DNA of 64,000 nucleotides from Branchiostoma floridae (lineage: Eukaryota > Chordata > Leptocardii > Amphioxiformes > Branchiostomatidae), in NCBI RefSeq assembly GCF_000003815.2, contig NC_049997.1, positions 15,426,753 through 15,490,752 on the forward strand. Reading direction: 5' to 3'. Every line of letters begins with the position of its first letter. Within the stretch, counting starts at the first letter, position 1. Shown here one piece after another: positions 9,989-55,544 of the stretch. A program made the position numbers and the translations under genes. The notes under the pieces are model-generated. The model did no database searches. It saw only the letters and a program-made list of their open reading frames with translations, and was not told the origin of the DNA.

Positions 9989-17337
<7,349 letters not shown>

Positions 17338-29940: not shown

Positions 29941-29991
29941 TACATACGGTGAATATGTATGCCTTTTTACACAGGCTGGGAAACAAGCAAC

Positions 29992-30046
29992 ATGTTGGGG
30001 AAAAGGATGTTGCTGTCAGCTTTTGTGATGTTTGTCGCAATACGCG
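29992..30046 (+). CDS. modular gene, exon 1: signal peptide
   Basis: ATG opens [18 protein letters not shown], with a basic start and a hydrophobic core, and a phase-1 donor (G then GTATGT) follows. It joins in frame to the phase-1 acceptor of A1. A possible acceptor ACACAG at about 29969-29974 suggests an upstream noncoding exon. It lies about 3 kb from A1, so the link rests on phase and fit rather than proximity. Confidence 0.7.
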
Positions 30047-33000: not shown

Positions 33001-36000
33001 GGGGGGTGGGGGTACATGTCATTCACGTAAACATTTTGTTCTCGTTCTCGCGATTTTTTTCCAATGTCGTGGCCAAAAATGTTACATCATGGGCTTTTTG
33101 CAGAAACGACCCAGCAGTATCCGCCAGAACCCCCACCACCACCGCCCCCACCACCGCCGCCCCCACCCCTACCTACTGGCTGTGAGTACAAGGGCCAGAT
33201 TTATCCATTTGGCACGTGGATAGAGGAGCCGGGATGCTTTAAGCAAGGTGTATATTGTGACCTATCGCCGGGTGAAATCCTTACCTTGAACACCTTTGGA
33301 CTTGGATGTGAGTCGACTCATTTGCTGATAGTTATATATTTTTAAATATATATACCTTAAAAGGTATCCTATCTGGATAAATCGACATTTTGGTCTTCCA
33401 TTAATATTGATTTCGTATCAGTGAAGTATGTCCCCCAACGACCTCGAGGTCAAGGGGCTAGGTAGATAGGTAGGTAGGAATTGTAACGAACATTGATGGT
33501 TGGGCATAAACGTATTCTAAATATGATTTTTTTGGACCATATGGATGACGTTTTGTTACCACTACTGTTATTTTTTTCTATGACAAAATAGAGCACTTTG
33601 GTACATACGACTGCAAGGAAACTATGTTTTTTGTGTGCATGATGATGAAAGCTACAACCTCACTTCTGCACATACATGTATCTACTGATTACCTGTGGGT
33701 ATTAGAAAATGATTTTTTTTAATTAGATGACAACAATTATTTTCTAATAACTAAGTATACAGGTCATGTGGACAGGGGGGACTTTGTGCTTGTACTTGTG
33801 ATCCCTTCTTGTAAGATTATACAAGTTCAATGTAGTGTTGGTTAAAATGTTACCATCTGATGATAAGAATTCCATTGCACTTCAATAAACTCTATTATCG
33901 TGCTTTAGAAGTCTAGCTTTTCGTTAGCTTGGGTGCATACCTTTCAACTCCGATGCTTGTTGTTGTTCATCCATACCTTGAATTCTAATGTCGTAGGTTG
34001 TGAATATAATGGACAGTACTATGAAGACGGGGAGACCCTCACCAGACCTGACGGTGTGACCTGTCACTGTGAGGGGAGCAAAACTGTCCATCAGGCTGCT
34101 CCGATGATATGCCCAGGTAAGAAGCTTGTTTCTTTCTTTGGCTATTGATAAACAGTGGGGTAAGTGGTCATAAGTGGAAACGCTATACACAACATTTTGT
34201 TTAATTCCAGCTTTAGCGCCCAGATACTACGGTAGGTATAGGGGTCTTGGTAGAGTTTAATAGAAAACTTTTTTTGGCAGTTTGGATACTTGATACCACG
34301 GTACTCGACGGTGAGTGAAATCTATGTGCATGAAGGTTCATCTATGTCGGTAAATAACATCATGGAAACTAGAGGTCCACGACCGCATCCTTTGGCTAAA
34401 TGGTTTTAAGCAATACAACCGATTGTTATGTGTGTTTCTCTTTAATCATGCAAATAAGAGTCTAATTTGCATAAATAGAATTATGTGACCATCTCATCCA
34501 TCCAAACAGAAGTCGACAATTTGTCTTGAAGGCCATAAAAGCTTGTTTATCATTTATGAGGTCATCATTTGCGTAATTCATATTCAACGATGTTAACCTT
34601 CACGTCGCTTCCAAATGCCACAAGTATGGAATTCACATTAATTACCATTATGGAATTTTAGCATTTTGTCTTCAGTTATGCAGATTGGGTCTTCATTTGC
34701 ATAATTTCCCATCTACCAATGTTTTTCTCAGTGACATATGTCACCAGAAATACTGACTAATGATGCAAATATGCTGAAAAAATGTTTTACAATCATGTTA
34801 TTCACATAAAGGTTTTGTTTATGAGAATATTTTCAATTTCGAGGCCAAAATGTTATATATAATGGGTCTTTTCATACCTTTTGCAGAGACGACCCCAACG
34901 ACACCACCACCGCCGCCCCCACCACCCCCGCCCCCACCACCACCGCCCCAACCACCGCCGCCCGAACCCGATTACTGTGAGTGGGAAGGGCAAAGGTATC
35001 CATTTGACACGACGATGCAAGAGCCGGGCTGTTTTCGGCCAGGTTTAGTTTGTGTCCAAAATAACGACGGATCGGCTGGATTACTTGTCTTGGACAGCTA
35101 TGGGCATGGATGTAAGTCACGTCATTTAATACTGTTGACTGAATCGCTTATTTGGGAAGCCCATTTTCCAGCACAATTTTCCCGATTACCCGGCTTTGTC
35201 GATTATCAAGCGTTAGCTCAAACGAACTTTTACTGGAGCGCTGGGTTGTTCGGGAAATAACACACAAATGACACAAATTGAAGACAAAATGATAGTAATT
35301 GTAATCATCAACTATAAATCTCAGGGAAATTCATTTATATCAGTACATTTTACTTGTATCTACAAAATAATCAATGTCTTCTTGTTTTTGACTCCACTCG
35401 TCTGGAGAAAGTCTAACAACGAAAATTCTGTATATCTAAAGCTTATGTAGGCAGGGTGTGTTAGTGCTTGTATTTGTGTTCCCTTTCTGCAAGATTATAC
35501 AAGTCCCATGTCGTATTGGATAAAACGTTCCCATCTGATGATGAGACCTAAGACACAACCTATTCTTCTCGCGTTTTACGATTAGAGCTTGTTCAAGTGG
35601 GGCAAAAGCCCTCAAATTGTTGTATATTGTGTTGTGACTTTTAGTGTATCGATCTGGGTTCAAACTCTGAACTCTGGAAATCTGTAACAGTAGACATCGT
35701 TCGCACCAAGGTGTTCACTAGCCTGATTGAAAGTTACACTTCTTTGACCAATCTGTACATCAAAGTTAAGCCATGTAGGTGCATGATAAGGACATTGAGG
35801 TGCTAGACCCAGTAGCTGTTCTTTCATGCTGAGCAACTTTCTAATGTTAATATCGTCTGCCAAAGGACCGGGTCTTGTAGAGTTGACTATAAGTATGGGA
35901 GGAGTAAGAAAGCAGAGAAGAGTGCTCTAACTCAAAGCTTCCGTGCGTTTGTGAATGGCATGTCTGTGTCCTTTGCGTCAAAGTTTCTCATAAGTCTTGT

Positions 36001-39000
36001 AGTAGACGTTTCTCGTGCAGCATCTAAAAGAATGGCCACAACACCGCCCCCACACTTCTTACACTTTTCGTTGGCTTGAACGAGGGCACACACAAAAAAA
36101 CGGTAAACACCTATCCACCTATGTCTGTTTATCCATACTTTGGTTTCAAATGTTATAGGTTGTGAGTACGATGGAGAATACTACAAGGACGGGGAGAACG
36201 TCACCAGGCCTGATGGTGTCACCTGCTACTGTGTAGGGAGCGAAACTTGGCAGGCTGCTCCGATGATCTGCCCAAGTAAGAAGCTTGTTTCTTCCCTTTG
36301 AAAATTGCGCAAGTGATAAACGCTGGGGTAAGTTGCTTAGCACTCAGCACTACTAATGAGGAAGGGAATGGGAGTTAAACGCACATCACTACCACCGGAC
36401 TAGTCTCCTGCTGTAGTGGCTTGCTCAAATGTGTGGCCCAATGGCTTCAATAATGGAAATGGGCACCACCCCAAACATTTGTTACAGATGTACGGGCAAC
36501 TTTAACTTTTAATTTTAAGTTGTCACAAATGGAAATACCAGGGAACATTTCGTTTCTTTGCAGTTTTCAAGTGCCCAGATACCACAACAGTTGGTCATGG
36601 TAGAGTTTGGTAGAAAACGTTTTGGGGAATTTTGTTACTTCTCTTGTTTCTAGTATCATGTTTTGTATGTTAATTGAGATTCTCTCATGTCCGTTATGTG
36701 TATTGGTGTATTTCATGTATAGAACCACAGGATGAATAACTATTAGAAATATCAAGCTACTTGTGGATCCAAATACAGTCAATGTTTCTGTCTGTTTCTG
36801 ATCCACAGATTGCTCCGCTGATGTTGTGTTCGTCGTTGACGACTCTTCAAGCATCACTTCGAGCAGTGTCGCCAAGAATTACATGAAAGCTTTCCTCCAA
36901 TGTTTCAATAACCAAGATGTCGGGGTAAGTCTTTAATTATGTTTCCCGATAGAGAAAACAATGTTTGTGCTAGTGTGATCTTCTTCTTCTTTTTTCTTGT
37001 TCGTTTTCGTCTATTCTGCCATGGTGATTCAATAGATCAGCAACTATGCAACACTTGTCTAAGTTCATACTTGTTAATGTGGTTCTAACTTTCCGTAGCA
37101 ATGGTCATATTACGAGAGGAGATCAATAAGTTCTCGGCCTCACCCAGATTCTGGGTTATTGGGTTTGACTTCTATTCCGAAGACAGTGGAAGACAAATGA
37201 TCCCACCTTTTCTATGATGTGTGTTTTTTGTGATGTTAAAAGGAGAATTGTTTTCTTTAGGTTGGAGTAATTCTTTACCACTGCGTCCCGAGGACGGCCA
37301 TTCCCCTGGGTACCTACACAGTGAGTGACCCTGCACTACCCGGTCACATCAACAATCTAACCAGGGAAGGAGGATTCAGTCGGACCGGTCTAGCTATCAG
37401 CTTCATGACATATACGGTAGGACAGCCATCTCTGTGTCATTATCAACTGTTTGAATGATTGATTTATTTGCAAATCCATGCCCGTAGGCTAATTGCAAGG
37501 GTACAGACAGTAAACAGTAACAAGTGTCTATTCTAGACAGCTATCTATATACATGATTCTACATTGTTTACTGGGAGGTTCGACTTCTTCTTTGGAGGCA
37601 GTGGGTTCTGTGATTTTAACAGGAATATAGTTTTTGGAGGTCTACTAACTGGTGAAAAGATGGAATTATTGTTTCGATTGTGTCAAAAAGGTTGTTTCTT
37701 TCATCCTTATAATGGGGCAGTTACATATAAGGTAAAAGGTAAAGTACATGTATGAAGTTTTACCCATGGCTGGTAATTCGGGCGATGTTGAGAATCAAAG
37801 AGGGGCTGAAATTCCAGGAATAGTTGTTCTGTTTCATCAGATTTTGAAACACATTTTTGCAGTGTATAGTTGTCGACAATGTTATCAAGATATCATAGAT
37901 AGATATATGGATAGAAAGATAAACGTCAATATAAATCTAAATAGCAATAGTAACTAACCCTGTCCTTCCATTTTGGCGCAGATAGGACTGACAATTATCC
38001 AAATGGCACTCTTGTGAATCCAATATAATGACTTGAACTACAAACTCTATCAAACGCATGCTTTTTATTACCTTTGTGCTTTACTTGTGTTAGTTTCATG
38101 TTTTAGCCATCTGGTCATTTCTTTGATGATTTGTTTGTTTGTTTGTTTGTTTGTTTAGTCCAATTTCCGTGAAGGGGCCAATCGTGTAGCAGTAGTCCTG
38201 ACGGATGGAACTACTCAAGGCGACGGACAGGAATATGTATGTATAAAAAAATTATCTATTTCTTTTCATGGTTATGTTTTTGTTCTTTACGACGGGGTGG
38301 GGTTACATGATAAATATCACATTGACATCGTAATAGCAAAAAAGGAAGAAAGAAATGCAGCCACACACAATTACTTTTGACAATGTTGCCAGTTGTTGCA
38401 TGTGCTGCAATGTAAACATTATATGCGCATACTATATAATCTACGTCTATCTCAATAGTGACTTAATGATTTTGAGTCATAAAACTTTTTAGCTTTGTAT
38501 CATCTGATTTACTATGCATTAATGCTAATCTATAACTTGCCTATGAAGTCAATTGTTTTAAGTAATATCTAACAGTTTTAAGTAATATATGTAACAAGAA
38601 AGGTATTCTAAAACCAAAAACCATTTGTTCATTCATTCATTCATTTATTCATTCGTCCATCCATCCATCCATCCATCCATCCATCCATCCATCCATCCAT
38701 CCATCCATCCATCCATCCATCCATCCATCCATCCATTCATCCATTCGTTCATTCACTCATTCCATAGGTAATGGACGACTATGCTGTACAAGCTGACACC
38801 GCTAGAGCCGCAGGAATCACAGTGTACAGCGTTGCCATTGGAAACCCACGTTTTGTGGACCTAGCTGCGCTAGTTTCCATTGGTGGCGGCCCCGAAAACG
38901 TTTTCAGACCCGCCAACCCCTGCGAGGTTGCAAACCGCATAATACAGGACCTGTGTGGTACAGATATAGGTAAGGTACATACATATGTATACCCTGCTAG

Positions 39001-39305
39001 TAGGTAGACCTTTTTTACTCACTTTCAAATAATCGTAAGCTTTGGTCCTGAATACTGTAAATGCAGAAATGTTCGCGGTGGATTAATGTTCGCGGATTTC
39101 GCGTTGGCCATTCCACCGTGAATTTAAAACCACCGCGAAAATTTTTCCATGGCATTAAGATACCACAGTGCATGGTGCTACCGCGAATTGAAAACCTCCG
39201 CGAAAAGTCCCTTTTCTCGCTACCGCGAAATTAAAACCTCCGCGAAATTAAATCCCCGCGAACTTAAATGCATTTACAGTATATCCATATCTAGATAATC
39301 ATCTT

Positions 39306-39338
<33 letters not shown>

Positions 39339-42300
39339 TTGATATATATATATGCCAATTTCTCTCTTTGTCTATAGATACTTATTTACGAGGGTGAGTC
39401 AGAAAGTAATGCAAGTGGTTTCATAAAAGACTCGTTTTTTGATCGAATGAGTTCAAATTTGGCACAAAGGTAGAGGCATATGTCCTCTTGAGATTAAAAT
39501 ATCTAAATTTGTTGCTCATTATTTTATGAGTGACTGACCAGCTTTCAAGATGACCATACCCTAGGAATCCCGTCAGAAGAAAAGTGAAGTCCAATTAACG
39601 TACAATTAAGGATTTCCCTAAACCAATTTTTGCTATTGTAGGAGACCGAGCCTGCACATGTAATAAGCAGCATTTCTCTATAAGCCACATGCTTATTTTC
39701 AACTCTGAAATTCGATCAGTTTTTCTTTTTTCGTTGCTGGAGTAGAGTGAGGTATACGCGGTCGTCTGGGTCATGAGATTTGTGGTGTTATGATTAAAAG
39801 TTTCTATAGCCTTCTTTCACCATTAACAAAGAGGAATAAAACTTAGCACACTTTTTGGCCTTTAAACAGTTAATAACTGTGTAAAGTTTCGTTTCTTTTG
39901 GTTAATGGAAAAGTAGTTTTTTAACCAACAACTCACGAATTCGTGTATCAATCCAACAGCTCTATATCACAAATTACTCCATCCTAGCAACTGTAAATGA
40001 GGAACCATTGAGAGTTCAGAAATGAAATTCGGCATGCATCATATAGAGACATTTGATATCATATATGTGTAATTTTAACCTCCTACAGTGATTTTCAGTG
40101 GGTCAGATTTAGAGGAATTCATAGTCTGACAAGCTACCAAGGGTGTGTTCATCTTGAAATCAACTCAGTTGCTCATAAAATGATAAAGACCAAATTTAAA
40201 AACTTCAATCTCAAGAGGACATATGCCTCTACTTTTGTGCCAAATTTCAACTCAATTGATTTAAAAACGAGTCTGTTATGAAACCACTTGCATCACTTTC
40301 TGACTCACCCTCGTATGTCTCTCTGTCTCTCGTAGGGGTGGAGAGTTTTGTAGTCTCTTACAAAACCGGTTTTTATTACTGGACCGGACATAAAAAAATC
40401 GGTAGACCGGATGTTGAACAGATCCTATGATCAGGCATTCACAGGTCTTACCGGTCGAAGAAAATAACAACTGCGAAGGAGGGTAGAGTCTATAGTCATT
40501 TCTATCAAGTTTTACAGTCAATAGTACAGAGGCAGTTAGCCTTGTAGGATTTTAAAACTCCAGTAGAGTCGAATACAAAAAAAAAATTGTTGTTGCGAAA
40601 TGGACCATTGTTTTGAGTATCATTTATTCACAAGTTCTCACATACTGAATCAGGCATAGGTTCAGGACTGGACCTGGACCGGATCCTCTGGACCTGGACC
40701 GTACCTGCACCTGAATGTTCTGTACCGGTACCCACCCCTAGACTCCATACGTCACCGGAAAATGGTAGAAATTGTCCAAATAGACTGCAATAATACGACA
40801 GAGAAGTTAGTCAGCCGTAATGTACTGTTTGCAAGCCACTCCACACCAGGAAGCGACATATGTATCCGTAAACAAGGTTGTAGACACCAGAAAATACACC
40901 ATATGAGTTCCACGACCCCAAACCTCCGTGAAGTCAACATCTCTCGCTGTTTCAGAATGCAAAACAGAAATGCATTTTAGTTCGCGGTGATTTAATTTCG
41001 CGGTAGGAGGAAAAGGGACTTTTCGCGGTGGTTTTAATTTCGCGGTAGCACCATGCACTGCAGTCTCTTACAGCCATGGAAAAATGTTCGCAGTGGTTTT
41101 AAGTTCGCGGTGAAGCGGCCACCGCGAAAACCTCAAACAGTAAACCACTGCGAAAGTTTCTGTATTTACAGTACCTTATAATAGAAATCCCCATAGGCGA
41201 AAACTGTGTTCTGCTATCTTATCAAAACCTTACAGTTACTCTTTAAAAAACAATACAGTTTTCCTCGTTCGAGGCGAGCTGTTATAAAGTGGAATGTTAC
41301 GTTTTACACTTGTGATATATTTCTACTAGAAACGACCATACCGCCGACCACACCGACGACGACCACACCCAAACCGACCACACCTGAACCGACCACACCC
41401 GAACCGACCACACACCCCGAACCGACTACCCCCTTTTTTGGTTGCGTATACGAAGGGGAACGATATCCTCCGGGAGAAATAATAGACATGGTTCTAGACT
41501 GTGGGGGGCACATTACATGGTGTGATCGCGACGGCAACTTAGTAATTGACGACTACTATGGACCCTCGTGTGATACAACAACGCCACCTATCGAAGGTAA
41601 AAACTATAGCCTCTACCAAATCCATACGTCGCTGGAAAATGGTAGCAAGTGTCCAAATAGACTGCAATGATACGACAGTGAAGTTAGTTGGACGTACAGT
41701 ACAGTTTGCAAGCCACTCCACACCAGGAAGCGACATATGTATCCGTAAACAAGATTCTCGGCACCCATAAATACACCATATGAGTTCCACAACCCCATAC
41801 CTCAGTGAAGTCAACATTTCTCACTGCTTCAGAAGGCAAAACAGAGAATACCAACTTTAATTCTATAGGTTTTTAGTGTCTATCTTAACATGATGATAGA
41901 AGCATGCCATTGTATTGAATGAAAGACATATACATTTGTTCTACACTTATGGCTAGGTACGGGTCGTCTAACTAATAGTAAACTGAACTTATATGTAAAC
42001 TGCACGAAAGTGCGATTTACCAATAATAGTAAATGCCAGGTGCTTTTTGGCAAACACTACCATCCTTACCTGCTATTCTTAAATACCACTTTTCACAGAG
42101 AACAGAGTAAGAGTTACACATAGGGAATATAGATAGTATACAAAAGTGTTGTACTAACCTAACCGAATAGAGTTAATTTCTTCTGATAACTGGAATTTCA
42201 AGTTTGTCATCTATGATATCTTACTAATAGAAACGACAACAACAGAAACGACAACGCCAACAACTTCAACAACAACTCCAACACCCAATCCTATCGGCTG

Positions 42301-45300
42301 CGAGTATGGAGGGAAATTCTACCCTGCGGAGTCTTCAATAGTGTGGATACCGGGGTGTACGGGGGGCGACTTATACTGTGACGAAGAGGGAACGATCCTT
42401 GTCGGGTACGACTTTGGATACGGATGTAAGTCTGGTCGACTTATGACCACTCATACTACTACTACTACTGCAACTACTGTCAGTCAGTCTACACAGACTG
42501 ACTGCGCGAAGGAACTTACGACAAGGGAGACTACAGCACTCATAAATGTACAATGCACGTGCATTATGACTTATGACCAATCATAGTTATCAGAGTATGG
42601 GTTCCGGCCCGGCACACTTGGCATGGTTAGAAAGGTTGCTTAGTAAGGAATCGAAAGATGAAAACCGCATTCCAATCGGATACATCTGTAAATATTCTTG
42701 AGCATACGCGACCTGTTTAGGCGAAACCGCTAGCTACTTTTATCAAACACCGCATGTCACGGCACCTTGTAGGGTGGTGAGTTAATACCGCGATTGTAGC
42801 TTAGGGTTCAAGTTCCAGCCCGGCCCAATTGGTATGGTTAGAAAGGTTGCTTAGTAAGGAATCGAAGGATGAAAACCGCAGTCCAATCGGATACATCCTT
42901 CTGGAGATATTCTTGAGCATACGCGCCCTGTTTGCACGAAACCGCTAGCTACTTTTTGCAAAGACCGCCTGTCACGGCACCTGGTAGGGTGGTGAGTTAA
43001 TAGCGCGATTGTAACTTAGGGTTCAAGTTCCGACCCAGCCCAATTGGTATGGTTAGAAAGGTTGCTTAGTAAAGGATCGAAGGATGAAAACCGCAGTCCA
43101 ATCGGATACATCCTTCTGGAGATATTCTTGAGCATACGCGCCCTGTTTAGGCGCAACCGCTAGCTACTTTTTTCGAAGACCGCCTGTCACGACACCTGGT
43201 AGGGTGGTGAGTTAATAGCGCGATTGTAGCTTAGGCATATATATTTGAAATCGTACGATTGTATAAAAAAACAGGTGGGAAAATGTACAACTCATCTGAC
43301 ATTGTATGTATTACTTTTTTTGTCTTCAATGTCCTCCTTGCATTGCTGAACAAGTATCAATTAGCCAGGCATAGTGGACCGATATGTTATTTGAAGAGCT
43401 ATTTGGCGAACTGTTTGAAAGGACTGCATACAGGAGGATGTATCCTTTTGAACTTCACTGTTCTTGCTGTTTACGTCCTTTGATTTTCAATCGTTGCAGG
43501 TTGTTACCACAATGGTCTGTACTACGGTGCAGGACAGGTCTACACTGAAGGCAGTGTGACTTGTTACTGCGAGGGGAGCAGTAGTAACCAAGCTGATCCT
43601 ATGATCTGCGAAGGTAAAAACTGTTTTGGAAGTAGACCTCTTTGAGATTTTAGGGTAATATATAATTTAGATAAAAAGTTATTGCTAGAAGAAACGACCT
43701 TGTATACTGTCAATATGTCACACTGACACTCACATTTAGCTCCACCTGATTATATGGAGATTTTCTTATTTTATTATTCCATATTTTTATTAGTACAGTT
43801 TTAATATCTATTCTGTATTTTTTCGTTGTAGTTTATAGTTAACCATTGAAGTGTCACTGTACTTTTTTGTTGTGTTAATTAAGATTGCTGTTGTATTTCC
43901 AGACCATGGTACGACCACACCGCCACTACCACCACTGCCGCCGACAACGCTATCTATCTGTGATAGCTTATGGGGAGGCTGGTGTAAGTCTGTTCGACTT
44001 ATCATTACCAATCATAGTAATCTAAGCATGAATATTCCATATTTGCAAGCCCCTGAACCACTAGCTAAAAAAAAGCGACAGTTGCATTTTAAAATTCTTC
44101 GCATTGTAGTTGTGAGGAATTGAAGAAAGAACTAAAACGAAAAGGAAAACGTACAACTTATTCGACAATTTTGGTACAGGTGACAATATTGAGTAAATAT
44201 TTTTTATGATAAAAAAGAAATTAATCTTTCTTGCAGCCTTCGATAAATCAACTAACTCTGACCAACAATACAGCTAACTAAATTTATGCAATTACCAAGA
44301 AGCGAGAGGAAGGCGAATGTACTAGAATAGTCGTATATATGCACATATAAATGTATATGATTGTTACATGTATATGATTGTTACCATGTGACCTGTACTT
44401 AGCCCAGTGGGGTAAAATGTGCAATTAAGGTCGTTACTAGTCTGGCATTGTGATTCGAAAATGTTGTTATTTGATGAGGTATTAGAGGACTGTTTCAACG
44501 GACGTTTAGGAGAGTTATAATGTACACTTTTGACATTCGATGTTCTTGTTGTTACTCTGTGACTGGAGGGTAACCTCCGTCGACAGAGTATTGTGAACGG
44601 TCTATGTCTTGAGTGTTCGCACCTATATCTTTATGTTCCGTTTGCCGCATTCGTATGTGGTTTGGCATGTCTTCTGTACTCAGTTGCGCGATGATGCACG
44701 TTGTTTTTTTCGCGGTAGCTGTTGTTATAATCGATGGAATAATTTCAGAAATCACCCCTATATTTTCTGTATTGTTGAACAGGCAATGTGGTTTCGGTGT
44801 TTGGTAATCAGCTTATTAAGCAGATAGGGTGGGTTATGTGTTGTTACAGATGTAATTGAACAAATGTTCGTCGTATGATGTGTGATGTAACGACAACAGC
44901 TGACGTCGTTGATCAACTGTTAAAGGTGTTTCTGTACTTGTTTACTTTGATATCCATTGTTGCAGGTTGCGAGTACAATGGACAGCTCATCGGACACGGG
45001 GAAGGATTCACCAGGCCTGACGGTGTGAGTTGTTACTGTAAGGCCACTATAGGGAATGGCGATGGTGTACCTGTTCCTCTGACCTGCGAAGGTAAAAAAT
45101 GTATAGTCTCTACCAGACTCCTCTCGTCTCTAGAAAATGGTAGCAAGTGTCCATTGGCAAATAGACTGCATGCAATAATACGACAGTGAAGTCAGTTGGC
45201 CGTACAGTACAGTTTGCAAGTCGCTCCACACCAGGAAGCGACATATGTATCCGTAAACAAGGTTGTCGACACTAGAAAATACAGCGTAAGAGTTCCACGA

Positions 45301-48300
45301 CCCCAAACCTCCGTGAAGTCAACATCTTTCAATATTATTCAAATGCAAAACAGAGAATTCCTACTCTAATTCTACAGGGTTTGAGCGTCTATTGTAACTG
45401 GGTATATCTTATCTGTATCTGCCGATAAAGGAAATTTGAATATGCATTTTTTGAGAAGTACCCCTTCTGTTCTACCATTTTACCGACTGTGGTATATATA
45501 TATATCTTTCCAGAAAACACGACCATACCGCCGACATGGCCGCCAACACCGCCACTACCGCCGACAACGCCACCTATCGGCTGTGAGTATGGAGGACAGT
45601 TCTACCCACCAGGGACGACAATAGAGGAGGTTCCAGGCTGTATGGGACACGGAGTGCTCTGTGACCAAGACGCCCAGATCCTTGTCTGGGACAACTTTGG
45701 ATTCGGATGTAAGTCTGTTCGACTTATTACCATTCATACCTATCTGATCATTGCCACATGAACTAAACACAAACCTATTGCAAACACTGAAACATTCTTA
45801 CAGCAATACATACTTGTATATCTTTAAACTTTAGGACAATAAAGTAGCCATTTGGCTACCAATTCTCTATCGGTTACAATGTTAGGTAGTAGGTGAGAAG
45901 GTTAGTAACAAGGATAGGAGCAAAATGTACCACCCAGCGACAGTGTTGCCGCTTGCTTGAATGTTCCTTCTAAAACAATTACCCAAGTTCCCTTGGCATG
46001 GTGCAACATTCAAAATGCAAAATGTTATCATTTGATGAGCTCCTACAGAGTCTCTGTTCCATAGCTTGCTGCCATAGTCTGTTTGAGCTAATTGTAGCTG
46101 GCTTGGTTAAAAAGCAGTTACTCAAGCAACTGGACATGATTTTGGAAACGGTCAGACGTTTCAGATATTATCCACTATCTTTCGTTACTGTCATTGATGA
46201 AAGATACTGTATGCTATCTGAAACGTCTGTGACCGTTTACAAAATCTTGTCCAGTTGCTTGAGTAACTGCTTTTGGCATATCTTACTACCTGGACGTCCA
46301 ACCTTCATCTACGTGTTGTTTTAGGTAACACATACTTTGGTTTCCAATACCCTAGGCTGTGAGTACAACGGACAGTACTACGAAGACGGACAGGCCCTCA
46401 CCAGACCTGACGGTGTCACCTGTCACTGTGTGGGGAGCGACAATCACGAACCCGCTCCTATGAGCTGCGAGGGTAAAATTCTTTTATCAAGTGAAAGAAC
46501 TTTGGCAAGGTTGTAGAAGCTGGTCCAGAGTTTATTTAGTGCGAATGTGTTGATACGGCAGCTGATCTTTCACTACCCGCGAGTAGCTACATGTATAGGT
46601 CTAGAGGAAGTCCTGAATTATATGCATGTATACATGTATGTTCTTTAACGAATTTGATGACGTGATTTCATAATCTTTGACAGATACAGAATACAGTCAG
46701 AATGTCATTTTACTTTCTTGGGTTTGCGAAGGTTCAATTTTGTTTAATTTTGTCGTCACCATTTTATGACCACCCACTCCCCAAGATGACGCTGCATGTA
46801 TATCCGTAAACAAGCTTAACATAATATACATCATAAGAGTTCCTCAGTGCAATAAGACAGAATGCTATTGAGTACTTAACCGGTTTATCAAAGGTATTAT
46901 AAACAGAAATGCCAAGTCTGTCATACAAACGCGGGGGTAACCTATATCTGTCGTTACATGGTAGTCAGGGATACCAAGTCAACGGACGGTCGCCGTAAAT
47001 GGCAATATTTTCAAACTATTGCAGTTTTGACCCACCATCCAATATTCTTTTTTTTTCACCTTACGGTACATATTTACTGATTTTGCAGCTACTCTGTACA
47101 ATTTATAGTATGGTCGATTTTTGTTAAATAGGCGAGAATTCATGCGCGTGTGGATGTCACGGCTTAAATGAAAATAAAGATATTTTTCGTAGAGCCAACA
47201 TGGCCGCCACTCTGTGAGTACGACGGAGAGTTCTACCCCCCAGGAACAACAATACACGAGACACCAGGCTGTATGGGAGGCGGTGTACGTTGCGAAGATA
47301 ACGGCCAGATCCTTATCTGGGACAACTTTGGATTCGGATGTAAGTCTTTTCGACTTACCACCTTTCTAATCTCCAAGCAGATCTACCGATGACAAGACAA
47401 TATCCATTGGTCCATTAGGCTCAGGTGGCCACTGGATAATATTTTAGCCCATGGATACTTTCTTACTAAAGCTATCTGCTTTGAGATGATAACTATTCAT
47501 CTTATCTGAATAAAATACCAGCCTAGACAATCTTATGGCCAGTTAGACCAATTTCAAAACCCTTAACTGTAAAGGAAAATGGAAGTCGTACGACTATATA
47601 AGTTTCATTTTAGTAGCTAGGCTTGGTGTTTCGAAACGTTATCATCATTTCCTGCACATTTCGACACAGCTTGTTGCCTGTTTAGACGATTCGTTGTTGG
47701 CGTTGCCCCCCCCCCCCCCCAAGTAGTTTTCAACGTTAATGATCCATGCATCCGTTTTGATCTTTGATTTCCATTGTTTTAGGCTGTGAGTACAATGGAC
47801 AGTACTATGAAGATGGGGAGACCTTCACCAGACCTGACGGTGTGACCTGCTACTGTGAGGGGAGCGACAATGCTGAACCCGCTCCTATGGTCTGCCCACC
47901 GCCACCACCGCCACCACCGCCACCACCGCCGCCCCCGACAACATGGCCACCGGAGCCAACTTCAGGCTGTGTTTACGGCGGGCAATTCTACCCTCCAGGA
48001 GCGACAATATACGAAACGCCAGGCTGTATGGGTTACGGTGCATTTTGTGGCGATGACGGCCAGATCATTAACTGGGACAACTTTGGATTTGAATGTAAGC
48101 CTGTTCGACTTATTACCATTCATCCATATCTGACTACGAAGACCTAACCACCCATGTACACCCATTGCAAAACCATTCTTACAGCAAAATACGATCATCT
48201 TTAACCTTTAGGACAATAAAGTAGCCATTTAGATATTTGGCTACCAATTCTCTATCAGTTTCGTGGTTAGGCAATCAATCAAGCAATCAAATGGTTTATT

Positions 48301-51300
48301 TGTCAGAACGGCAGCAGGATATAGGAGAGAAGGTTAGCAACAAGGAGCAAAATGTACCACCCAGCGATAGTGTTGCCGTCTGCTTGAATATTCCTCCCTG
48401 AACAACTATTCAAGTTCCCCTTTAGGCATGGTGTTAGATTCAAATACCAAATGTTCATTGATAAGTTTCTACAGAGTCCCGTTAGGCTTAGGTCACATTT
48501 CACAACCAGGTCCCGACCGGGATGTTTTAAAATGCGAAAAATTGAAATGTATCCCTAGAAATATGTACAAATCATGCCCATGAATGCTATGTTGACATTT
48601 TGTGTATTTGAAAGTCTTTTATATCATTATTTTTGCTTCCGAAATCTGTCCAGCCGGGCCCCTTTTTCGAAATGTGACCTAAGCCTTACATAGCTTGCTG
48701 TCTGTACTGTTTGAACGAATTGTAGCTGGCTTGCATTTTGTCTCAGGACGTACATATCCTAGTGTTGTTGTTGTTTAGCTAACACATACATTGGTTTCCA
48801 TTATTCTAGGTTGTGAGTACAATGGACAGTACTACAAAGACGGGGAAGGATTCATCAGGTCTGACGGTGTGAGCTGTTACTGTGTGGGGAGTGACAATTA
48901 CGAACCCGCTCCTATGGTCTGCGAAGGTAAAAACTTATAGTGTCTAGTACCAGACTCCATAGGTCCCTGGATGATATTGTCCAGGGACCTATGGGAACAT
49001 TGTCCACTTTATAATTTGCCAGATGACGGAACATTGTCCACTTTATAATTTGCCAGATGACGGGGGTGGGGGCATCATTACTACATTAGACTTTAGAGCT
49101 GATGGCGTGACCTGTCTCTGAGAGAGTTTCATCGGATGAAACCACGCTTATCTCTCCCGCATGTTCAACCAAACCATAAAACACCAGAGTTCCGTGACTT
49201 CATACCTCTGTCATAGTTACTAGTGTCTGTTATAGTATGCAGAATACAATATGCTGTACAGAATGCTAAAAAAATCCCTTTACTATCGTTTGGAACCGGT
49301 TTATCGACAAACTTAATTGATCGCAAACTGTTGCAAACTGCAGTTAAGTATCCCATATATGACATATGTATGGGTTCTACAAATGTCAAAACTAATACTG
49401 TTTACGTTGCCACCATAGTTGCCACCATGTTTGTGCCGCCTTGTTTGTTTTCCGTCATGCCTTACTTAGCCCGGCTGATAACTTAGCTAATCATGATTCA
49501 GAAAAGGAAATCACGACATTAGCCATACCATATCCCTTCCTCCTCCATTTGCTATAGAGCCTACAACACCACCACCTCCACCACCACCTCCACCGCCTCC
49601 TCCACCACCGCCGCCGCCACCGCCTCCACCACCACCTCCACCACCTCCTCCACCACCTCCTCCACCACCACCACCGCCTCCACCTCCACCGCCTCCTCCA
49701 CCACCGCCACCTCCACCGCCTCCACCACCTCCTCCACCACCACCTCCGCCGCCACCTCCACCACCGCCACCTCCTCCACCACCACCACCTCCACCACCGC
49801 CACCTCCTCCACCACCACCACCTCCGCCGCCACCACCTCCACCACCTCCTCCACCACCTCCACCACCGCCTCCTCCACCACCTCCTCCTCCCCCGGGAGC
49901 GCCTCCTCCACCACCGCCTGCTCTTCCGCCGGGAGCACCGCCTCCACCTCCCGCCCTCCCATGTTTCCACGAGGGACAGGAATATCCTCCAAATACTATT
50001 ATAGAGGAGGCAAGCTGTACGAGCAGCGGTTTACTCTGTGACCAGTACGGCCAGGTCTTTGAGTTGGACCCCTTTGGCCACGGATGTGAGTTTGGTCGAC
50101 ATTTATATTACCAATCAGATACAATCAAACCTGTGTAAGTAATCATCTCTACATAATGACCAATTTTCCAAATGTGACCACTTTTTGGGGTCCATTGAAC
50201 TGTTTTTTTTTCATTAACAGAAGCATTAAGTATTCTATCTGTTTGTTGCTGGCATTTTTGAACGAAGAAAAGTCACTGTACACGTTTCAATTCTTATGTT
50301 GTTGTTGTTGTTTACAAACATTTATTTCCAATGCTGTAGGCTGCGAACATGATGGACAATGCTACAACGATGGAGACACCCTCGTCAGAGCTGACGGTGT
50401 GATGTGTCGTTGTGAGGGCAGCGCTGATGTGACACCCGCCCCTATGGTCTGCGATGGTAGGAGAAATTTGGGCAATGTTATATGAACTTATATCTACCAA
50501 TGCTACAAATACAGTCAAACCTGTATTACCGGCCACCTCTGCATAGCAGCCACCTGGCCACTGCTGCCACTTTTCGTCGATCCTTTGGATTTTCCCCATT
50601 GACCTAAGTAATAGTCTAAGAAATAGTCTATAGCGGCCACCTGTCCAACGCAGCCACGGCCGCACGATTTCCTCTCCTGTAGGTACAGACACACTGTCTA
50701 TTGAGACCATACATCGGCCGTATGTCACCCTGCACAGAGTTTAAGCGGTAGCAGAAGGTACGCGTGCCTTGAACATTAGAGTTCAAGTCTTTGTCGTCGA
50801 ATTTACCAACATTCCGCGTGGAAATCTCAATCATTTTCGGTATACTTGACTTTGATAGGGTCAGTTGAATTAGACAATATTACTTGGTTAAAAAGATTAG
50901 TGGGTATCATGACGTCATGTAACTTCTTGCTCTTGATCGAGATTTTCTCTATAGTGGCCACTTGGCTATAGTGGCAACCTGTCTACAATCCCTTGAGTGA
51001 CCGCTATAGACAGGTTTGACTACATATTCTGAACATGCTAGCCGATATAAGTTCCCAGTTGAGATAGATTGGTGCTCACTTATTAAGGCCTCCGTCACAT
51101 TTCCCATCTAGGGCCTGACCGTGCTGTTTGTTGAAACGAGAAATTGAACCTTAGGCCAATTAATATGTAAATAGCATGCGTTGAATTATTTTTGGCACGT
51201 TTTGTGTGCTTGCTGTCATTTATATACTAGTAGTACTTTTCGCTCCCCAAAGCTGTCTCTCAAACACCTTCGTCAGAGCTTCTAACTGGAGTTCTGCTTC

Positions 51301-54300
51301 TCGCCGCTATATGTAGCCGATGTAGGTGGCGCTTTTGCGGTGAGAAAACAATCCCAAACGTGGCTAAGATTGTATCCCCCTCGTCTATATTCTACCAACC
51401 TGATGAAACTATTTTCGGACACATTTCTTGCAGAGCCAACCCCGGCGCCGGGCCCACCGCCGGCACCCCCGCGTTACTGTGAGTACCTGGGACAGTTCTT
51501 CCCTCCAAATACAACAATACAGGAGCCAGGCTGCATGAGGAGTGGTGTGTTGTGTGACCATAATGGAGTGCTCTTTCCCGTGGACAGCTTTGGTTACAAC
51601 TGTAAGTCTGTTCAACTTATAAGGCCACACTGATTTTATTTATGGATGATATCCCATGGAAACCATAAAACTAATGCGGGAGGGCGAATAAAAAAGTCCA
51701 GCAAAAATGCTGCTAACTCACAGAACTAAACATCCAATCCATTCTGCCCCACGCTTGGTTTGTCTTATGTAGTAAAACTGTAAGATACAAGCAGCGCCAT
51801 GGTAATAATTTTTTACTACCATTCTTGTTTAAAGAGGGGAATAGGGGCGCTATATGTGGCCCCATGCCCTGACCATGTGCCCCTTACCCTGGTGAGGAGA
51901 AGATGGCAAGCATAAAATTGGGGTTGGCATGGGATGAAATTGGGTCACCTGTGGCCACATCTGTTTTCGAGAACAGGTGGAAACTGCGCGCGCTGATGTT
52001 ATCCATAATATTAAGTCTGATGACTGCGGAAAAAGCTATTTAATCTTATCATTGTGTATACAAACAGCACCCTGAACCATTTTACCTTTAGTTTATCATT
52101 TTATTTCAAAGCTGTCAATCATTCTCTATCTGACTCTCTTTAATTTCCCCTCTCCTCTTCGTCTTTCCCTCTATTACCTCTTGGCCCCCCCTCTCCCTCC
52201 TCTCTCTCCCTCTTTCTATCCCTTCTCCCCCTCCCCAGCAGTATGGGCAAGAGGGTGAAGTCTGCTATCTACCTTGTCCATGTTGACTCCAGTAAGCTAT
52301 TTTTATTGGAGACCCTCACAACAAACACAAAGTTTGTTGCTCTCGACTACTTTCATTCTAACGGATTGTAACCGACAAGCACCTAGGACGTGCACAAGTG
52401 GATGTTATGTACAAATCATTTTTGAACCCAAAGGTGCCTTTTTGTTTACATACTTTGGTTTCCAACGCCACAGGTTGCGAGTTAAATGGAGAATTCTTTG
52501 AAAACGGGGTTTACACCACCAGACCTGACGGTGTGGAGTGCTACTGTGTGGGGAGCAACACTTCCTTACCTGCGCCTATGGTCTGCAACGGTAATATCAA
52601 TAAATCAGCTTATTTGTGTCTTTTGGTAAGTGATACTGTAAATGCATTTAAGTTCGCGGGGATTTAATTTCGCGGTAGTGGGAAAAGGGACTTTTCGCGG
52701 TGGTTTTAAGTTCGCGGCAGCACCATGTAGTCTTTTACTGACATGGAAAAATGTTCGCGGTGGTTTAAAGTTCGCGATGAAGCGGCCGCCGCGAAAACCG
52801 CGAACATTTACCACCGCGAAAGTTTCTGCATCTACAGTAGTAAGATGGGGACAGTTAAGTTGGGGCGTTTTTGCATTTGATATTTTATGCCGGAACCAGG
52901 TATTGAGTGGCGAAAGTTTCTGCATTTACAGTAGTAACGTGGGGACAGTGGGGCGTTTTTGTATTTAATATTTTATGCCGGAACAAGGTATTGAGTCATA
53001 CACTCCCAACGCAAACGGCATAAATATATCCGTAAACAAGTTTGGTGACACCATAAAACAGCTCCTCGACCCCATACCTCTTTTAAGTCATATAATGCAG
53101 AATACAGAATACTGTAACCGTTTCTGTTCATACACGTACGCAATATAACATTTTGTAAATGTTCAGACGCTTCAAGTACAGTATCCACTGAGAAAAGGTT
53201 ATGGATGCCACCTGAAACGTATGACCGTTTAGAGATATATCCATTTGCTTGAGTAACGTTTACCTTGTGTCTCTTATTACCTGGATATATAACCTTTATT
53301 AACGTCCATTTATCGGTGTCTAGTGTCTAACAGGCTTATCGAATAATGTGCTAAAAGAGACAAACCATATTATAGACTGAAATGCTAAGATTGACATCAA
53401 TGGTTACGTTAGTTCCTTTTTATCTTTGGGGTAACCTATATTCGTTGCTTTTGAAAACGGTATTTAGGGCTTTCCATAACCTGTGCCCTGTTTTAAGAAC
53501 AACGGAGATATGTTACCTCGTGGATAAAGGTAACATAGACCTCGGATAGGACGTTAAATGGAGGTCCCGTGTTTGGGGAGAGCCACACCCCGGGCACGTA
53601 AAAGAACCCGCCACTTGTGCGATGGTGCGGTGTGAGCGGATCAAACCATTCCAGCCAAATGGTGTAGGGAATTTTCCCGAGCAGCCCCGTAACCCCTGCT
53701 TCGCCCATTGGATCAGTTAGTCCTCACTCATAGTGAGCAATTGAGCTGGTCTAAATCAGGATGTTTCTGACCTGGGGCGAAGAGATGCCGTAACAGTTAC
53801 AATGTAACCCATAACCTTGAGTGACCTTCAGGTCTTGTTACGTGGTGACCATTTTAACTAAAGAAAAAAGAAAAAAAGGTGAACTTAACCATTATATCTT
53901 TTGTAGGAACGGTAGAGCAACACTCACCCGACTGTGAGCACGGAGGGCGATACTATTCCCCAGGGGAAACCATCTACGATAACCACGTCTGTATGGGCAG
54001 CAAGGCAACATGCGGGTATGACAACGGCCAAGTGATCAAGCATGAATACTTGGGATACGGATGTAAGTGTATTTGATATGTAACATTCCCATGAATTATT
54101 GTTATATCATAATACTATTAGTTATTTTCATTCATGTTACTTTCATTGCTATATTTCATTGCTTTTGAACATTTGTTATTCATCTATGATTTGTTATTGC
54201 ACTGCATTTGGTTTGTTAGTATACTATCAAATAGTTTCATTTATGTTACTTTAGTTATTTGTTTTGCCTGGTTTACATGTTTACGTTTTGCTCTTGTAGG

Positions 54301-54421
54301 TTGCCTGCATAATGGAGAGTACTACAAAACCGGGGATACCGTCACCGTAGGCGATGTGATCTGTCGCTGTGTGGGGAGCGAAAATGCAACGCCGGCTCCT
54401 ATGATCTGCGAAACACCCTAG
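29992..54421 (+). CDS. large modular secreted protein: signal peptide, vWA domain and alternating A/B cysteine modules with proline hinges (1,383 aa, 25 coding exons)
   Basis: I do not recognise this as a named gene. The order is signal peptide (1-19), A1, B1, A2, B2, vWA (about 241-424), A3, A4, B3, gutted A5, B4, A6, B5, A7, B6-A8 (one exon), B7, A9, B8, A10, B9, A11, B10, stop. Module A has four Cys: CEYxGQFYPPG, then PGC, then G-V-x-C-D, then D-x-F-G-x-G-C. Module B has four Cys: [12 protein letters not shown], then RPDGV, then C-x-C, then PAPMxC. B resembles the first half of a VWC domain. Introns are phase 1 except inside vWA. All 25 exons have canonical borders and the joined frame is open and exactly divisible by three, which strongly supports the model. 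The vWA domain and glycosylatable Pro/Thr hinges suggest an extracellular matrix, mucus or adhesive protein that binds ligand through a metal ion. No transmembrane segment was seen, and the role is inferred. Confidence 0.85.
33104..33307 (+). CDS. modular gene, exon A1 (proline hinge plus A module)
   Basis: The acceptor GCTTTTTGCAG is followed by [10 protein letters not shown], a run of about 14 prolines and the A module [19 protein letters not shown]. The donor splits the final Cys codon (T then GTGAGT). Confidence 0.88.
33997..34116 (+). CDS. modular gene, exon B1
   Basis: The acceptor TCGTAG then GT completes the split Cys codon, giving adjacent Cys-Cys. The module reads [20 protein letters not shown], then C-H-C, then PMIC. 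The donor is phase 1 (G then GTAAGA). Confidence 0.88.
34887..35111 (+). CDS. modular gene, exon A2 (proline hinge plus A module)
   Basis: Hinge ETTPTTP, about 14 prolines, then QPPPPEPDY. The A module reads [19 protein letters not shown] and ends at DSYGHGC. Flanking intron sequence is a clear duplicate of that around A1. Confidence 0.88.
36159..36275 (+). CDS. modular gene, exon B2
   Basis: Reads [20 protein letters not shown], then C-Y-C, then PMIC. Its donor leaves a single A (CCA A then GTAAGA), unlike the usual G. That A joins AT of the vWA exon to give Asn. NVT could be N-glycosylated. Confidence 0.88.
36809..38969 (+). CDS. modular gene, vWA domain exons (36809-36924, 37261-37416, 38159-38236, 38768-38969)
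   Basis: Four exons encode a matrilin-like von Willebrand A domain. The first reads [16 protein letters not shown], with DxSxS at D251, S253 and S255. The second carries [10 protein letters not shown] (T321). The third carries VVLTDGTTQ (D347). The last carries [11 protein letters not shown] and ends IIQDLCGTD. All metal-ion-site residues are present, so it should bind ligand through Mg or Mn. Internal introns are phase 0 and outer ones phase 1, so the block can move as one phase-1 cassette. The intron before the last exon ends in a long CCAT/CATT microsatellite. Confidence 0.92.
38630..38765. repeat. (CATT)n/(CCAT)n microsatellite next to a splice acceptor
   Basis: Tetranucleotide repeats run up to the acceptor CCATAG at 38767. 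The pyrimidine-rich repeat forms the tract before the last vWA exon. Confidence 0.9.
39053..39281. mobile_element. CGCGG-type palindromic MITE, copy 2
   Basis: Same ends (TACTGTAAATGCAGAAATG and AAATGCATTTACAGTA) and same interior CCACCGCGAA/TTCGCGG blocks as the other copies. Confidence 0.75.
39389..40313. mobile_element. nonautonomous Tc1/mariner-type element (925 bp, TA target site)
   Basis: The ends CGAGGGTGAGTCAGAAAGT and ACTTTCTGACTCACCCTCG are exact inverted copies flanked by TA on both sides. The inverted repeats continue for over 100 bp with few differences (for example AGAGGCATATGTCCTCTTG on the left and its complement on the right). No transposase frame exists inside. Confidence 0.8.
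40333..40740. repeat. family R1 inverted-repeat element, copy 3
   Basis: Starts TAGGGGTGGAG and ends GTACCGGTACCCACCCCTA. It abuts the duplicated intron segment at 40741-40968 and so cuts that segment off from whatever preceded it. Confidence 0.7.
40741..40968 (+). repeat. duplicated B-exon downstream intron segment, relic copy
   Basis: Closely similar to 41600-41850 and 45105-45355 (shared CCACTCCACACCAGGAAGCG and TATGTATCCGTAAACAAG). In the copies that follow exons the segment starts right after a B-type donor. Here the exon is missing and an R1 element takes its place. Confidence 0.7.
40969..41173. mobile_element. CGCGG-type palindromic MITE, copy 3
   Basis: Contains TTCGCGGTGATTTAATTTCG and ends GTATTTACAGTA. 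The left end is eroded. It lies about 160 bp before exon A3. Confidence 0.7.
41330..41596 (+). CDS. modular gene, exon A3 (Thr/Pro hinge, chimaeric 3' end)
   Basis: Hinge with TPEPT-type repeats, then [23 protein letters not shown] and GPSC. The exon does not stop at the split Cys. It continues DTTTPPIE to a B-type donor (GAAG then GTAAAA). TTPPI is the start of an A hinge as in A6, so the 3' end appears to be stitched from other modules. Confidence 0.85.
42231..42425 (+). CDS. modular gene, exon A4 (Thr-rich mucin-like hinge)
   Basis: Hinge [19 protein letters not shown] is a dense O-glycosylation candidate. The module reads [16 protein letters not shown], then PGC, L-Y-C-D and DFGYGC. It follows A3 directly with no B module between. 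Confidence 0.87.
42590..43238. repeat. three-copy tandem satellite, 215-bp period, with tRNA-like boxes
   Basis: GAGTTAATASCGCGATTG recurs at 42779, 42994 and 43209 (spacing 215). Each unit carries GGTTAGAAAGGTTGCTTAG and CAATCGGATACATC. The boundary GGTGGTGAGTTAATAGCGCG ... GGGTTCAAGTTCC looks like polymerase III A and B boxes, so this may be a tandemly amplified SINE. Confidence 0.8.
43500..43613 (+). CDS. modular gene, exon B3
   Basis: Reads [19 protein letters not shown], then C-Y-C, then PMIC. It lacks the usual RPDG motif, making it one of the more diverged B modules. Donor G then GTAAAA. Confidence 0.85.
43903..43983 (+). CDS. modular gene, gutted A exon (A5)
   Basis: Acceptor TTTCCAG, hinge [17 protein letters not shown], then only [11 protein letters not shown] before the A-type donor (T then GTAAGT). 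Most of the A module between its first and last Cys is gone. The exon stays in frame, so it may still be spliced in or be a relic. Confidence 0.65.
44966..45091 (+). CDS. modular gene, exon B4
   Basis: Reads [20 protein letters not shown], then C-Y-C and [15 protein letters not shown]. It carries a three-residue insertion before the last Cys compared with most B modules. Confidence 0.86.
45514..45708 (+). CDS. modular gene, exon A6
   Basis: Hinge [20 protein letters not shown], then module [24 protein letters not shown] and DNFGFGC. This is close to the A consensus. Donor T then GTAAGT. Confidence 0.9.
46112..46271. repeat. inverted repeat element (about 55-bp arms)
   Basis: AGCAGTTACTCAAGCAACTG at the left is answered by CAGTTGCTTGAGTAACTGCT at the right. 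GGTCAGACGTTTCAGATA and its near-complement lie inside. Related sequence occurs at about 32520-32600 and 53160-53275. Confidence 0.75.
46356..46472 (+). CDS. modular gene, exon B5
   Basis: Reads [20 protein letters not shown], then C-H-C and [10 protein letters not shown]. Acceptor CCTAG then GC; donor G then GTAAAA. Confidence 0.88.
47193..47339 (+). CDS. modular gene, exon A7 (very short hinge)
   Basis: Acceptor TTCGTAG, hinge EPTWPPL, module [24 protein letters not shown] and DNFGFGC. Confidence 0.88.
47783..48094 (+). CDS. modular gene, fused exon B6-A8
   Basis: One uninterrupted exon carries a B module ([20 protein letters not shown] ... PAPMVC), a hinge of about 14 prolines plus [10 protein letters not shown], and an A module ([20 protein letters not shown] ... 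DNFGFEC). The intron seen between B and A elsewhere is absent. Confidence 0.9.
48483..48688. mobile_element. short inverted-repeat element (TAGGCTTAGGTCACATTTC ends)
   Basis: TAGGCTTAGGTCACATTTC at the left pairs with GAAATGTGACCTAAGCCT at the right, about 205 bp in all. A diverged copy lies at 62021-62227. Confidence 0.7.
48810..48926 (+). CDS. modular gene, exon B7
   Basis: Reads [20 protein letters not shown], then C-Y-C and PAPMVC. Donor G then GTAAAA. A 14-bp-stem hairpin (CCATAGGTCCCTGG) and a 35-bp direct repeat follow at 48957-49063. Confidence 0.88.
49558..50085 (+). CDS. modular gene, exon A9 with a 109-proline hinge
   Basis: Acceptor GCTATAG, then EPTT, then 109 consecutive CCN codons (49569-49895; residues 986-1094). 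[20 protein letters not shown], then ALP and the A module [23 protein letters not shown] and DPFGHGC follow. The exon contains no ATG, so start-codon-based ORF finding misses it. Flanking splice sites and the intact A module show it is real. Confidence 0.88.
50340..50456 (+). CDS. modular gene, exon B8
   Basis: Reads [20 protein letters not shown], then C-R-C and PAPMVC. It has an extra Cys (GQCY), the only B module with five. Donor G then GTAGGA. Confidence 0.87.
50511..51022. repeat. inverted-repeat element with AGTCAAACCTGT ends
   Basis: ACAGTCAAACCTGTATTACC at the left and CTATAGACAGGTTTGACTAC at the right are complementary ends about 510 bp apart. Inside, CTATAGTGGCCACCTG-like units recur. 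A fragment occurs near 31690. Confidence 0.6.
51434..51601 (+). CDS. modular gene, exon A10
   Basis: Hinge [15 protein letters not shown], module [23 protein letters not shown] and DSFGYNC. Acceptor TTCTTGCAG; donor T then GTAAGT. Confidence 0.9.
52474..52590 (+). CDS. modular gene, exon B9
   Basis: Reads [20 protein letters not shown], then [17 protein letters not shown] is a possible N-glycan site. Donor G then GTAATA. Confidence 0.88.
52634..52839. mobile_element. CGCGG-type palindromic MITE, copy 4, with duplicated flank
   Basis: Starts TACTGTAAATGCATTTAAG and ends CTGCATCTACAGTA. About 80 bp of the right flank, together with the element's last bases (GCGAAAGTTTCTGCAT), is repeated in tandem at about 52909-52990. 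Confidence 0.72.
53907..54062 (+). CDS. modular gene, exon A11 (no proline hinge)
   Basis: Acceptor TTTTGTAG then GA, giving GTVEQHSPD in place of a hinge. The module reads [23 protein letters not shown] and EYLGYGC. It is a diverged terminal copy. Confidence 0.86.
54300..54421 (+). CDS. modular gene, terminal exon B10 with stop
   Basis: Reads [20 protein letters not shown], then [12 protein letters not shown] and a TAG stop. The stop falls where the usual phase-1 donor would be, so the array ends on a B module. No transmembrane or GPI tail follows. Confidence 0.88.
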
Positions 54422-54448: not shown

Positions 54449-55371
54449 CCAATAGGAGCTTAGGATTCTATATCACTATGGAAATCGGTCCAATAGGAGC
54501 TCAGGATTCTATATCACTATGGAAATCGGTCCAATAGGAGCTCAGGATTCTATATCACTATGGAAATCGGTCCAATAGGAGCTCAGGATTCTTTATCACT
54601 ATAAAATATGTCTAATAGGAGCTCAGGATTCTTTATCACTGTGACAATCAGTCCAATAGGAGCTCAGGATTCTTTATCTCTATTCAAGTTAGTCCAATAG
54701 GAGCTCAGGACTCTTTATCGTTATGAAAATCAGTCCAATAGGAGCTCAGGATTCTTTATCACTATAACAATCAGTCCAATAGGAGCTCAGGATTCTTTAT
54801 CACTATGACAATCAGTCCAATAGGAGCTCAGGATTCTTTATCTCTATTCAAGTTAGTCCAATAGGAGCTCAGGACTCTTTATCGTTATGAAAATCAGTCC
54901 AATAGGAGCTCAGGATTCTTTATCACTATGACAATCAGTCCAATAGGAGCTCAGGATTCTTTATCACTATGACAATCAGTCCAATAGGAGCTCAGGATTC
55001 TTTATCACTATGACAATCAGTCCAATAGGAGCTCAGGATTCTTTATCTCTATTCAAGTTAGTCCAATAGGAGCTCAGGACTCTTTATCGTTATGAAAATC
55101 AGTCCAATAGGAGCTCAGGACTCTTTATCACTATGAAAATCAGTCCAATAGGAGCTCAGGATTCTTTATCACTATGAAAATCAGTCCAATAGGAGCTCAG
55201 GATTCTTTATCACTATGAAAATCAGTCCAATAGGAGCTCAGGATTCTTTATCACTATGAAAATCAGTCCAATAGGAGCTCAGGATTCTTTATCACTATGA
55301 AAATCAGTCCAATAGGAGCTCAGGATTCTTTATCGCTAATTAAATCATTCCAATAGGAGCTGAAGATTCTT
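54449..55371 (+). repeat. 41-bp tandem satellite, 23 units
   Basis: Unit core is CCAATAGGAGCTCAGGATTC plus TTTATCACTATGAAAATCAGT. The array starts about 28 bp after the stop codon of the modular gene, so it is probably in its 3' UTR. Variant units come in ordered pairs (TCTCTATTCAAGTTAG followed by GGACTC...CGTTATG), showing higher-order duplication. Confidence 0.95.
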
Positions 55372-55544
55372 TTTCGCAATGGAAGTCATTCATAAGAAAA
55401 AATCACAGTTTGCAAAATGATAGTGTCTAGTTGCAGCGGATTTGTTGATGTGAGCAAAATACTGCATACAATCGATGAGAAATAATTCTTTCGACATCAA
55501 TTATAATATCCAGTAGTAACGTTGACAATGTTCTTGATTCTAGA

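Follow-up and report, generated by a model that had tools for sequence, protein, structure and literature searches.

A lancelet gene uniting a vWA domain, paired cysteine modules and polyproline rods: a candidate extracellular scaffold protein

A 64,000-nucleotide stretch of the genome of the lancelet Branchiostoma floridae (assembly GCF_000003815.2, contig NC_049997.1, positions 15,426,753 to 15,490,752 of the forward strand), here called the window, contains a 25-exon gene on its plus strand. The gene extends from position 29,992 to position 54,421 of the window, and its product combines a vWA domain with two recurring kinds of small cysteine-rich module, A and B, and with proline-rich hinges. 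We consider that this one gene probably encodes a secreted extracellular scaffold, in which disulfide-locked beads are carried on polyproline rods and the vWA domain provides a metal-dependent ligand site.

Joining the 25 exons gives a frame of 4,152 nt, stop codon included, whose 1,383 codons are uninterrupted by a stop and correspond to a protein of 1,383 amino acids and about 147 kDa. All 24 introns are of the GT-AG type, their acceptors read CAG or TAG in 24 of 24 cases and the reading phases agree at every junction; the exon edges were picked by reading, so these splice sites were chosen to fit. Scored with a generic donor matrix, the 24 donors rank between the 91st and the 100th percentile of all GT dinucleotides of positions 29,000-54,500. 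Twenty-one junctions are in phase 1, and the remaining three, in phase 0, all fall within the vWA domain. Because the module exons have phase-1 borders, they can be copied, lost or shuffled with the frame intact. Exon 1 (29992-30046) carries the start codon and a hydrophobic leader, ends on a phase 1 donor and offers an alternative start within the same exon, an in-frame ATG at 29959. Residues 7-17, in the leader, form the most hydrophobic 11-residue window of the whole protein. A scan of 29.0-54.4 kb for further leader exons (an ATG, a length of 15-40 codons, a mean hydropathy of at least 2.3 over 11 residues and a phase-1 GTRAG or GTATG donor) returned exon 1 alone, with two nested ATGs; another leader dividing the region was not found, although weaker leaders or other donors would escape these settings. 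The locus reads as a believable single animal gene for a matrix-type protein with a putative secretion signal.

Following the leader, the order of modules is (A-B)2 - vWA - A - (A-B)8, all on the plus strand. Exon 2 (33104-33307) holds a proline hinge and an A module and exon 3 (33997-34116) a B module, an arrangement found again in exons 4 (34887-35111) and 5 (36159-36275). Four exons then make up the vWA domain: exon 6 (36809-36924) with the DxSxS motif of the metal ion-dependent adhesion site (MIDAS) at residue 251, exon 7 (37261-37416) with GGFSRTG, exon 8 (38159-38236) with LTDG, and exon 9 (38768-38969). Exon 10 (41330-41596) has a Thr/Pro hinge and an A module that no B module follows, exon 11 (42231-42425) a Thr-rich hinge and an A module, and exon 12 (43500-43613) a B module. 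In exon 13 (43903-43983) a proline hinge precedes an A remnant with two cysteines, which is paired with the B module of exon 14 (44966-45091). The A module of exon 15 (45514-45708), which also bears a hinge, and the B module of exon 16 (46356-46472) were those used for structure models. A short hinge and an A module in exon 17 (47193-47339) are followed by exon 18 (47783-48094), where a B module, a polyproline hinge and an A module share one exon, and by the B module of exon 19 (48810-48926). Exon 20 (49558-50085) encodes a run of 109 prolines and an A module, exon 21 (50340-50456) a B module bearing an additional, fifth cysteine at residue 1165, exon 22 (51434-51601) a hinge and an A module, exon 23 (52474-52590) a B module, exon 24 (53907-54062) an A module, and exon 25 (54300-54421) a B module and the stop codon.

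The protein contains 286 prolines and 88 cysteines among its 1,383 residues. Proline or Thr/Pro hinges, Thr-rich in exons 10 and 11, precede most A modules, the last of which is devoid of a proline hinge, and six linkers between cysteines exceed 35% proline. The 109-proline run is the longest. Over its 327 nt the first two codon bases are invariant while the third is A in 56, T in 35, G in 17 and C in 1 codon; this is the pattern that selection on the protein would leave, to which in-frame slippage can contribute. Nowhere in the protein do four or more Gly-X-Y triplets follow one another. The spacing of cysteines is nearly fixed across the modules. All ten B modules have four cysteines ordered C - CxC - C, with one extra in exon 21, whereas in all ten intact A modules six residues separate the second cysteine from the third (C-x6-C). 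Each of the ten A-B joints reads CC, and the intron splits the codon of the first of these two cysteines. The fifth cysteine of the exon-21 B module (window 50342-50455, plus strand) and the five cysteines of the vWA region include some that may be unpaired or may form bridges between chains. An earlier note on this DNA had described the gene from the letters alone. Its coordinates, 25 exons, 4,152-nt frame and canonical sites are all borne out by the joining of the exons, and its picture of one secreted-type gene with a vWA domain, two alternating kinds of module, proline hinges and a matrix-like make-up is supported. The ten intact A modules that it counted are found, but its total of 21 four-cysteine modules falls to 20 (10 A and 10 B with at least four cysteines), the twenty-first being the remnant of exon 13.

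Recurrence of the two modules was established with leave-one-out profiles run against the six-frame translation of the window. The omitted A module was recovered in ten of ten runs (E 6.7e-9 to 4.6e-25), as was the omitted B module (E 1.1e-10 to 5.2e-25), and the top module-free segment scored E of at least 0.13 in all 20 runs. Strong module matches are confined to the 33-54.5 kb part of the plus strand. Among the 16 most similar pairs, eight per kind of module, dN/dS ranges from 0.10 to 0.52, the lowest value coming with saturated dS, and pooled pN/pS over all pairs is 0.59 for A and 0.54 for B; by these values constraint on the modules is visible, not strong. Introns 15 and 18 agree at 68% over 409 columns and intron 13 starts like intron 15. 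Such likeness fits the copying of an A-intron-B unit, while other intron matches may represent dispersed repeats.

Membership of the vWA domain in its family is clear: Pfam PF00092 scores 74 bits against a cut-off of 23.8 (E 2.2e-20) over positions 1-164 of its 174. The MIDAS motifs were located by pattern as DDSSS at residue 251, GGFSRTG at 316 and LTDG at 345, residues that together constitute a predicted metal site. By sequence, the nearest solved proteins are collagen VI alpha 3 (E 4.7e-14), followed by mussel proximal thread matrix protein 1 (PTMP1), integrin alpha-2 and VWF.

The B module resembles the fibronectin type I (FN1) module. Its profile matches that of FN1 better than do all 200 shuffles that keep the cysteines, and the predicted model of exon 16 is fairly confident, as is that of exon 15 for A. 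The earlier note saw in B the N-terminal half of a VWC domain. That is a fair reading, and the exon 16 model overlays VWC subdomain 1 of collagen 2A (1.4 A over 32 residues), but C - CxC - C is also the order of a whole FN1 module, which the profile and the predicted model match. The motif CCxxC, which characterizes the second half of VWC, occurs nowhere in the 1,383 residues. Pfam rows with E up to 10 were obtained for residues 1-876 and for two C-terminal pieces, which together cover everything but the 109-proline run, and they contain neither FN2 nor FN3 families. Pfam fn1 is listed for three of the ten B members, at 14.2, 14.1 and 21.2 bits (the best being exon 18), all below the cut-off of 27; VWC is listed for four of the ten; and the A modules, with their shifted cysteines, depart from the FN1 pattern. 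As the fn1 cut-off is not reached, B is named FN1-like, not FN1. The exon 18-19 piece scores 26.1 bits with VWC, short of the cut-off of 27.6 and with positions 1-38 of 57 as the best stretch, versus 17.2 with fn1, and residues 1-876 score 20.7 bits with VWC, again below cut-off. Pfam is thus split between fn1 and VWC and leaves the choice undecided, although the best single B favours fn1. On the residues, B is a module of the kind represented by FN1 and by the first half of VWC.

For the A module the earlier note could name no family. Its first 16 positions, however, align with those of B (hhalign score 25.2, reached by none of 200 shuffles), and the fold predicted for exon 15 ranks a stretch of MUC2 D3, FN1 and VWC at the top, all at low Z. 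The A model overlays VWC subdomain 1 of collagen 2A at 2.2 A over 39 residues. Judging from sequence and models, A and B appear to be small beta modules of the FN1 and VWC-subdomain-1 kind, with A as a variant whose cysteines are shifted. Another lead comes from DUF7210 (Pfam PF23843), which exceeds its cut-off of 27 with 28.9 bits (E 8.2e-7) on the C-terminal 291 residues (window 49962-54421, plus strand). This score is the sum of two short stretches, the better covering 15 residues (positions 10-24 of 38) with the shared CxxxGxxY start; other pieces reach 20.1 and 21.5 bits, and the N-terminal piece, like the modules taken singly, falls short of the cut-off.

Other candidates were set aside. 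DUF7738 was rejected as a name for A, its Pfam rows being below cut-off, and likenesses to SVWC and peritrophin were dropped as Pfam listed neither. A match of one A-B pair to lysosomal protective protein in a sequence search of the PDB (best E 0.0067) is taken as chance, since the alignment loses the cysteines. Two versions of a glycosyl hydrolase found with the A profile (E 2.4 and 2.5) were likewise rejected. The exon-25 B module used alone as query gave no matches, and among viral contigs 17 pattern matches were obtained, of which none was confirmed.

The window holds several further features. Upstream, pieces of an arginine methyltransferase gene lie at 9986-10306 and 15331-15615 on the plus strand; the C2H2 region matches solved PRMT3 (E 5e-7) and PRMT_C is detected at 3.1e-11, so this neighbour is probably PRMT3. 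A leucine-rich-repeat frame of 375 amino acids (22048-23172, plus strand) matches Pfam LRR_R13L1-DRL21 (E 6.8e-8) and solved F-box/LRR protein 2 (E 4.5e-4), and may resemble ZER1/ZYG11. A cold-shock domain exon (PF00313, E 1.1e-7) lies at 2672-2989 on the minus strand. Intron 11 contains three 215-bp tandem copies (42601-43235). A 41-bp minisatellite of 22.6 copies (54449-55372) begins 28 bases past the stop codon; the nearest AATAAA or ATTAAA downstream of the stop is at 55339. A tandem array whose periods are 183 bp and 336 bp occupies 60003-61392.

In the scaffold that we propose, A-B exon pairs would have been copied as units through their phase-1 introns, and the resulting pairs would serve as protease-resistant beads for repeated, multivalent binding of other matrix proteins. 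Polyproline segments would act as stiff spacers that keep the beads apart. At 0.31 nm per residue, a polyproline II helix of 109 prolines would be about 34 nm long. Via a metal ion, the vWA MIDAS would anchor the protein to a ligand, collagen-like or otherwise, and spare cysteines may link chains to one another.

The strongest competitor is a wall or glue protein with covalent cross-links, in which modules would swap disulfides between chains and polyproline would stiffen the product, by analogy with the nematocyst wall proteins of cnidarians. We regard it as unlikely, yet the content of cysteine and proline, the surplus cysteines of the vWA region and of exon 21, and the presence of the mussel proximal thread protein among the vWA relatives all suit it. 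Comparable designs are described in cnidarians: Hydra CPP-1 joins a rigid polyproline motif to cysteine-rich domains that crosslink through disulfides (PMC6910907), and minicollagen domains crosslink by disulfide reshuffling (PMC4863159). The near-fixed cysteine spacing, on the other hand, and the fairly confident models suggest small folds bonded within the chain, and the Gly-X-Y triplets do not recur four or more times in a row. Still less probable is a soluble pattern-recognition protein or opsonin of body fluid or mucus, with the A-B pairs as variable recognition units. The pairs have indeed been duplicated with their introns, as introns 15 and 18 indicate, and vWA domains occur in immune factors; but the modules are under constraint, with dN/dS reaching only 0.52 in the 16 closest pairs, and Pfam lists no family of the lectin or complement type for the chain outside the long proline run.

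It would be least expected of all that at least two neighbouring genes, or a locus in decay, had been joined in error. The length of introns 1 (3,057 nt) and 9 (2,360 nt) and the degenerate A of exon 13 point that way, and according to PMC6071037 unusual domain architectures in lancelets are frequently prediction errors, a caution that applies to the gene described here. Against such a join stand the one leader exon found under the scan settings, the one final exon with a stop, the open frame and the agreement of phases at all 24 junctions. A single secreted scaffold protein stays our preferred reading.

We also put forward, tentatively and as a proposal that is rather more likely to fail than to hold, that the A modules form a sister class of FN1 with rearranged cysteines, and that in an invertebrate chordate FN1-type modules were amplified in a protein other than fibronectin, an independent matrix protein in which A-B pairs and polyproline rods surround a vWA domain. 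A survey of the extracellular matrix lists FN1 as vertebrate-specific (PMC4224354); another paper confines it to deuterostomes and also reports that fibronectin and fibronectin-like genes are missing from the Branchiostoma genome and that cephalochordates have no fibronectin-like gene (PMC5006582). In a paper on NELL2 and Robo3 the label 'FN1' appears to denote the first FN3 domain of Robo3, and passages on plasminogen contained nothing on FN1 in lancelets. Some 20 FN1-like modules in one non-fibronectin lancelet gene would be a concrete case of the spread of such modules before or beside fibronectin. No protein combining vWA, FN1-like pairs and polyproline was found described among the matches listed for full-text open papers, with subscription papers, gene annotations and supplements outside the search, and a predicted-protein record for this gene may well exist already. 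The parts are of known kinds and their combination appears unusual; the 'new class' of protein announced by the earlier note goes beyond this evidence. With its naturally evolved arrangement of rigid rods and disulfide-bonded beads, the gene is also of interest for biomaterials.

With the FN1 modules of fibronectin and factor XII, B has in common the order C, CxC, C, an alignable module start and a match of profile and predicted model; tPA also carries FN1 modules. This gene differs from FN1 proteins in that B stays below the Pfam cut-off and alternates with A, and FN2 and FN3 are absent from the Pfam rows. The A and B models overlay VWC subdomain 1, known from collagen IIA and CCN3, while the lancelet protein is devoid of CCxxC and does not reach the VWC cut-off. 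The MUC2 D3 stretch 1189-1237, which we take to be the E module, is among the best matches of the A model, at low Z, but TILa scores 17.7 bits against a cut-off of 27, Pfam lists no vWD family for the sequence on either side of the 109-proline run, and A stands alone or beside B. DUF7210, a family of unknown function, shares the CxxxGxxY start with the modules and is kept as a lead. Collagen VI alpha 3 and mussel PTMP1 have the vWA domain and its MIDAS residues in common with the lancelet protein, as vWA matrix proteins to which those of the matrilin type also belong; their partner modules are unlike the modules and proline rods seen here, and Gly-X-Y runs are missing from the lancelet chain. 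Hydra CPP-1 and the minicollagens, in turn, place polyproline beside short cysteine-rich domains, a likeness of design only, compared by description, and vWA is not mentioned in the abstracts of the two papers on them (PMC6910907, PMC4863159).

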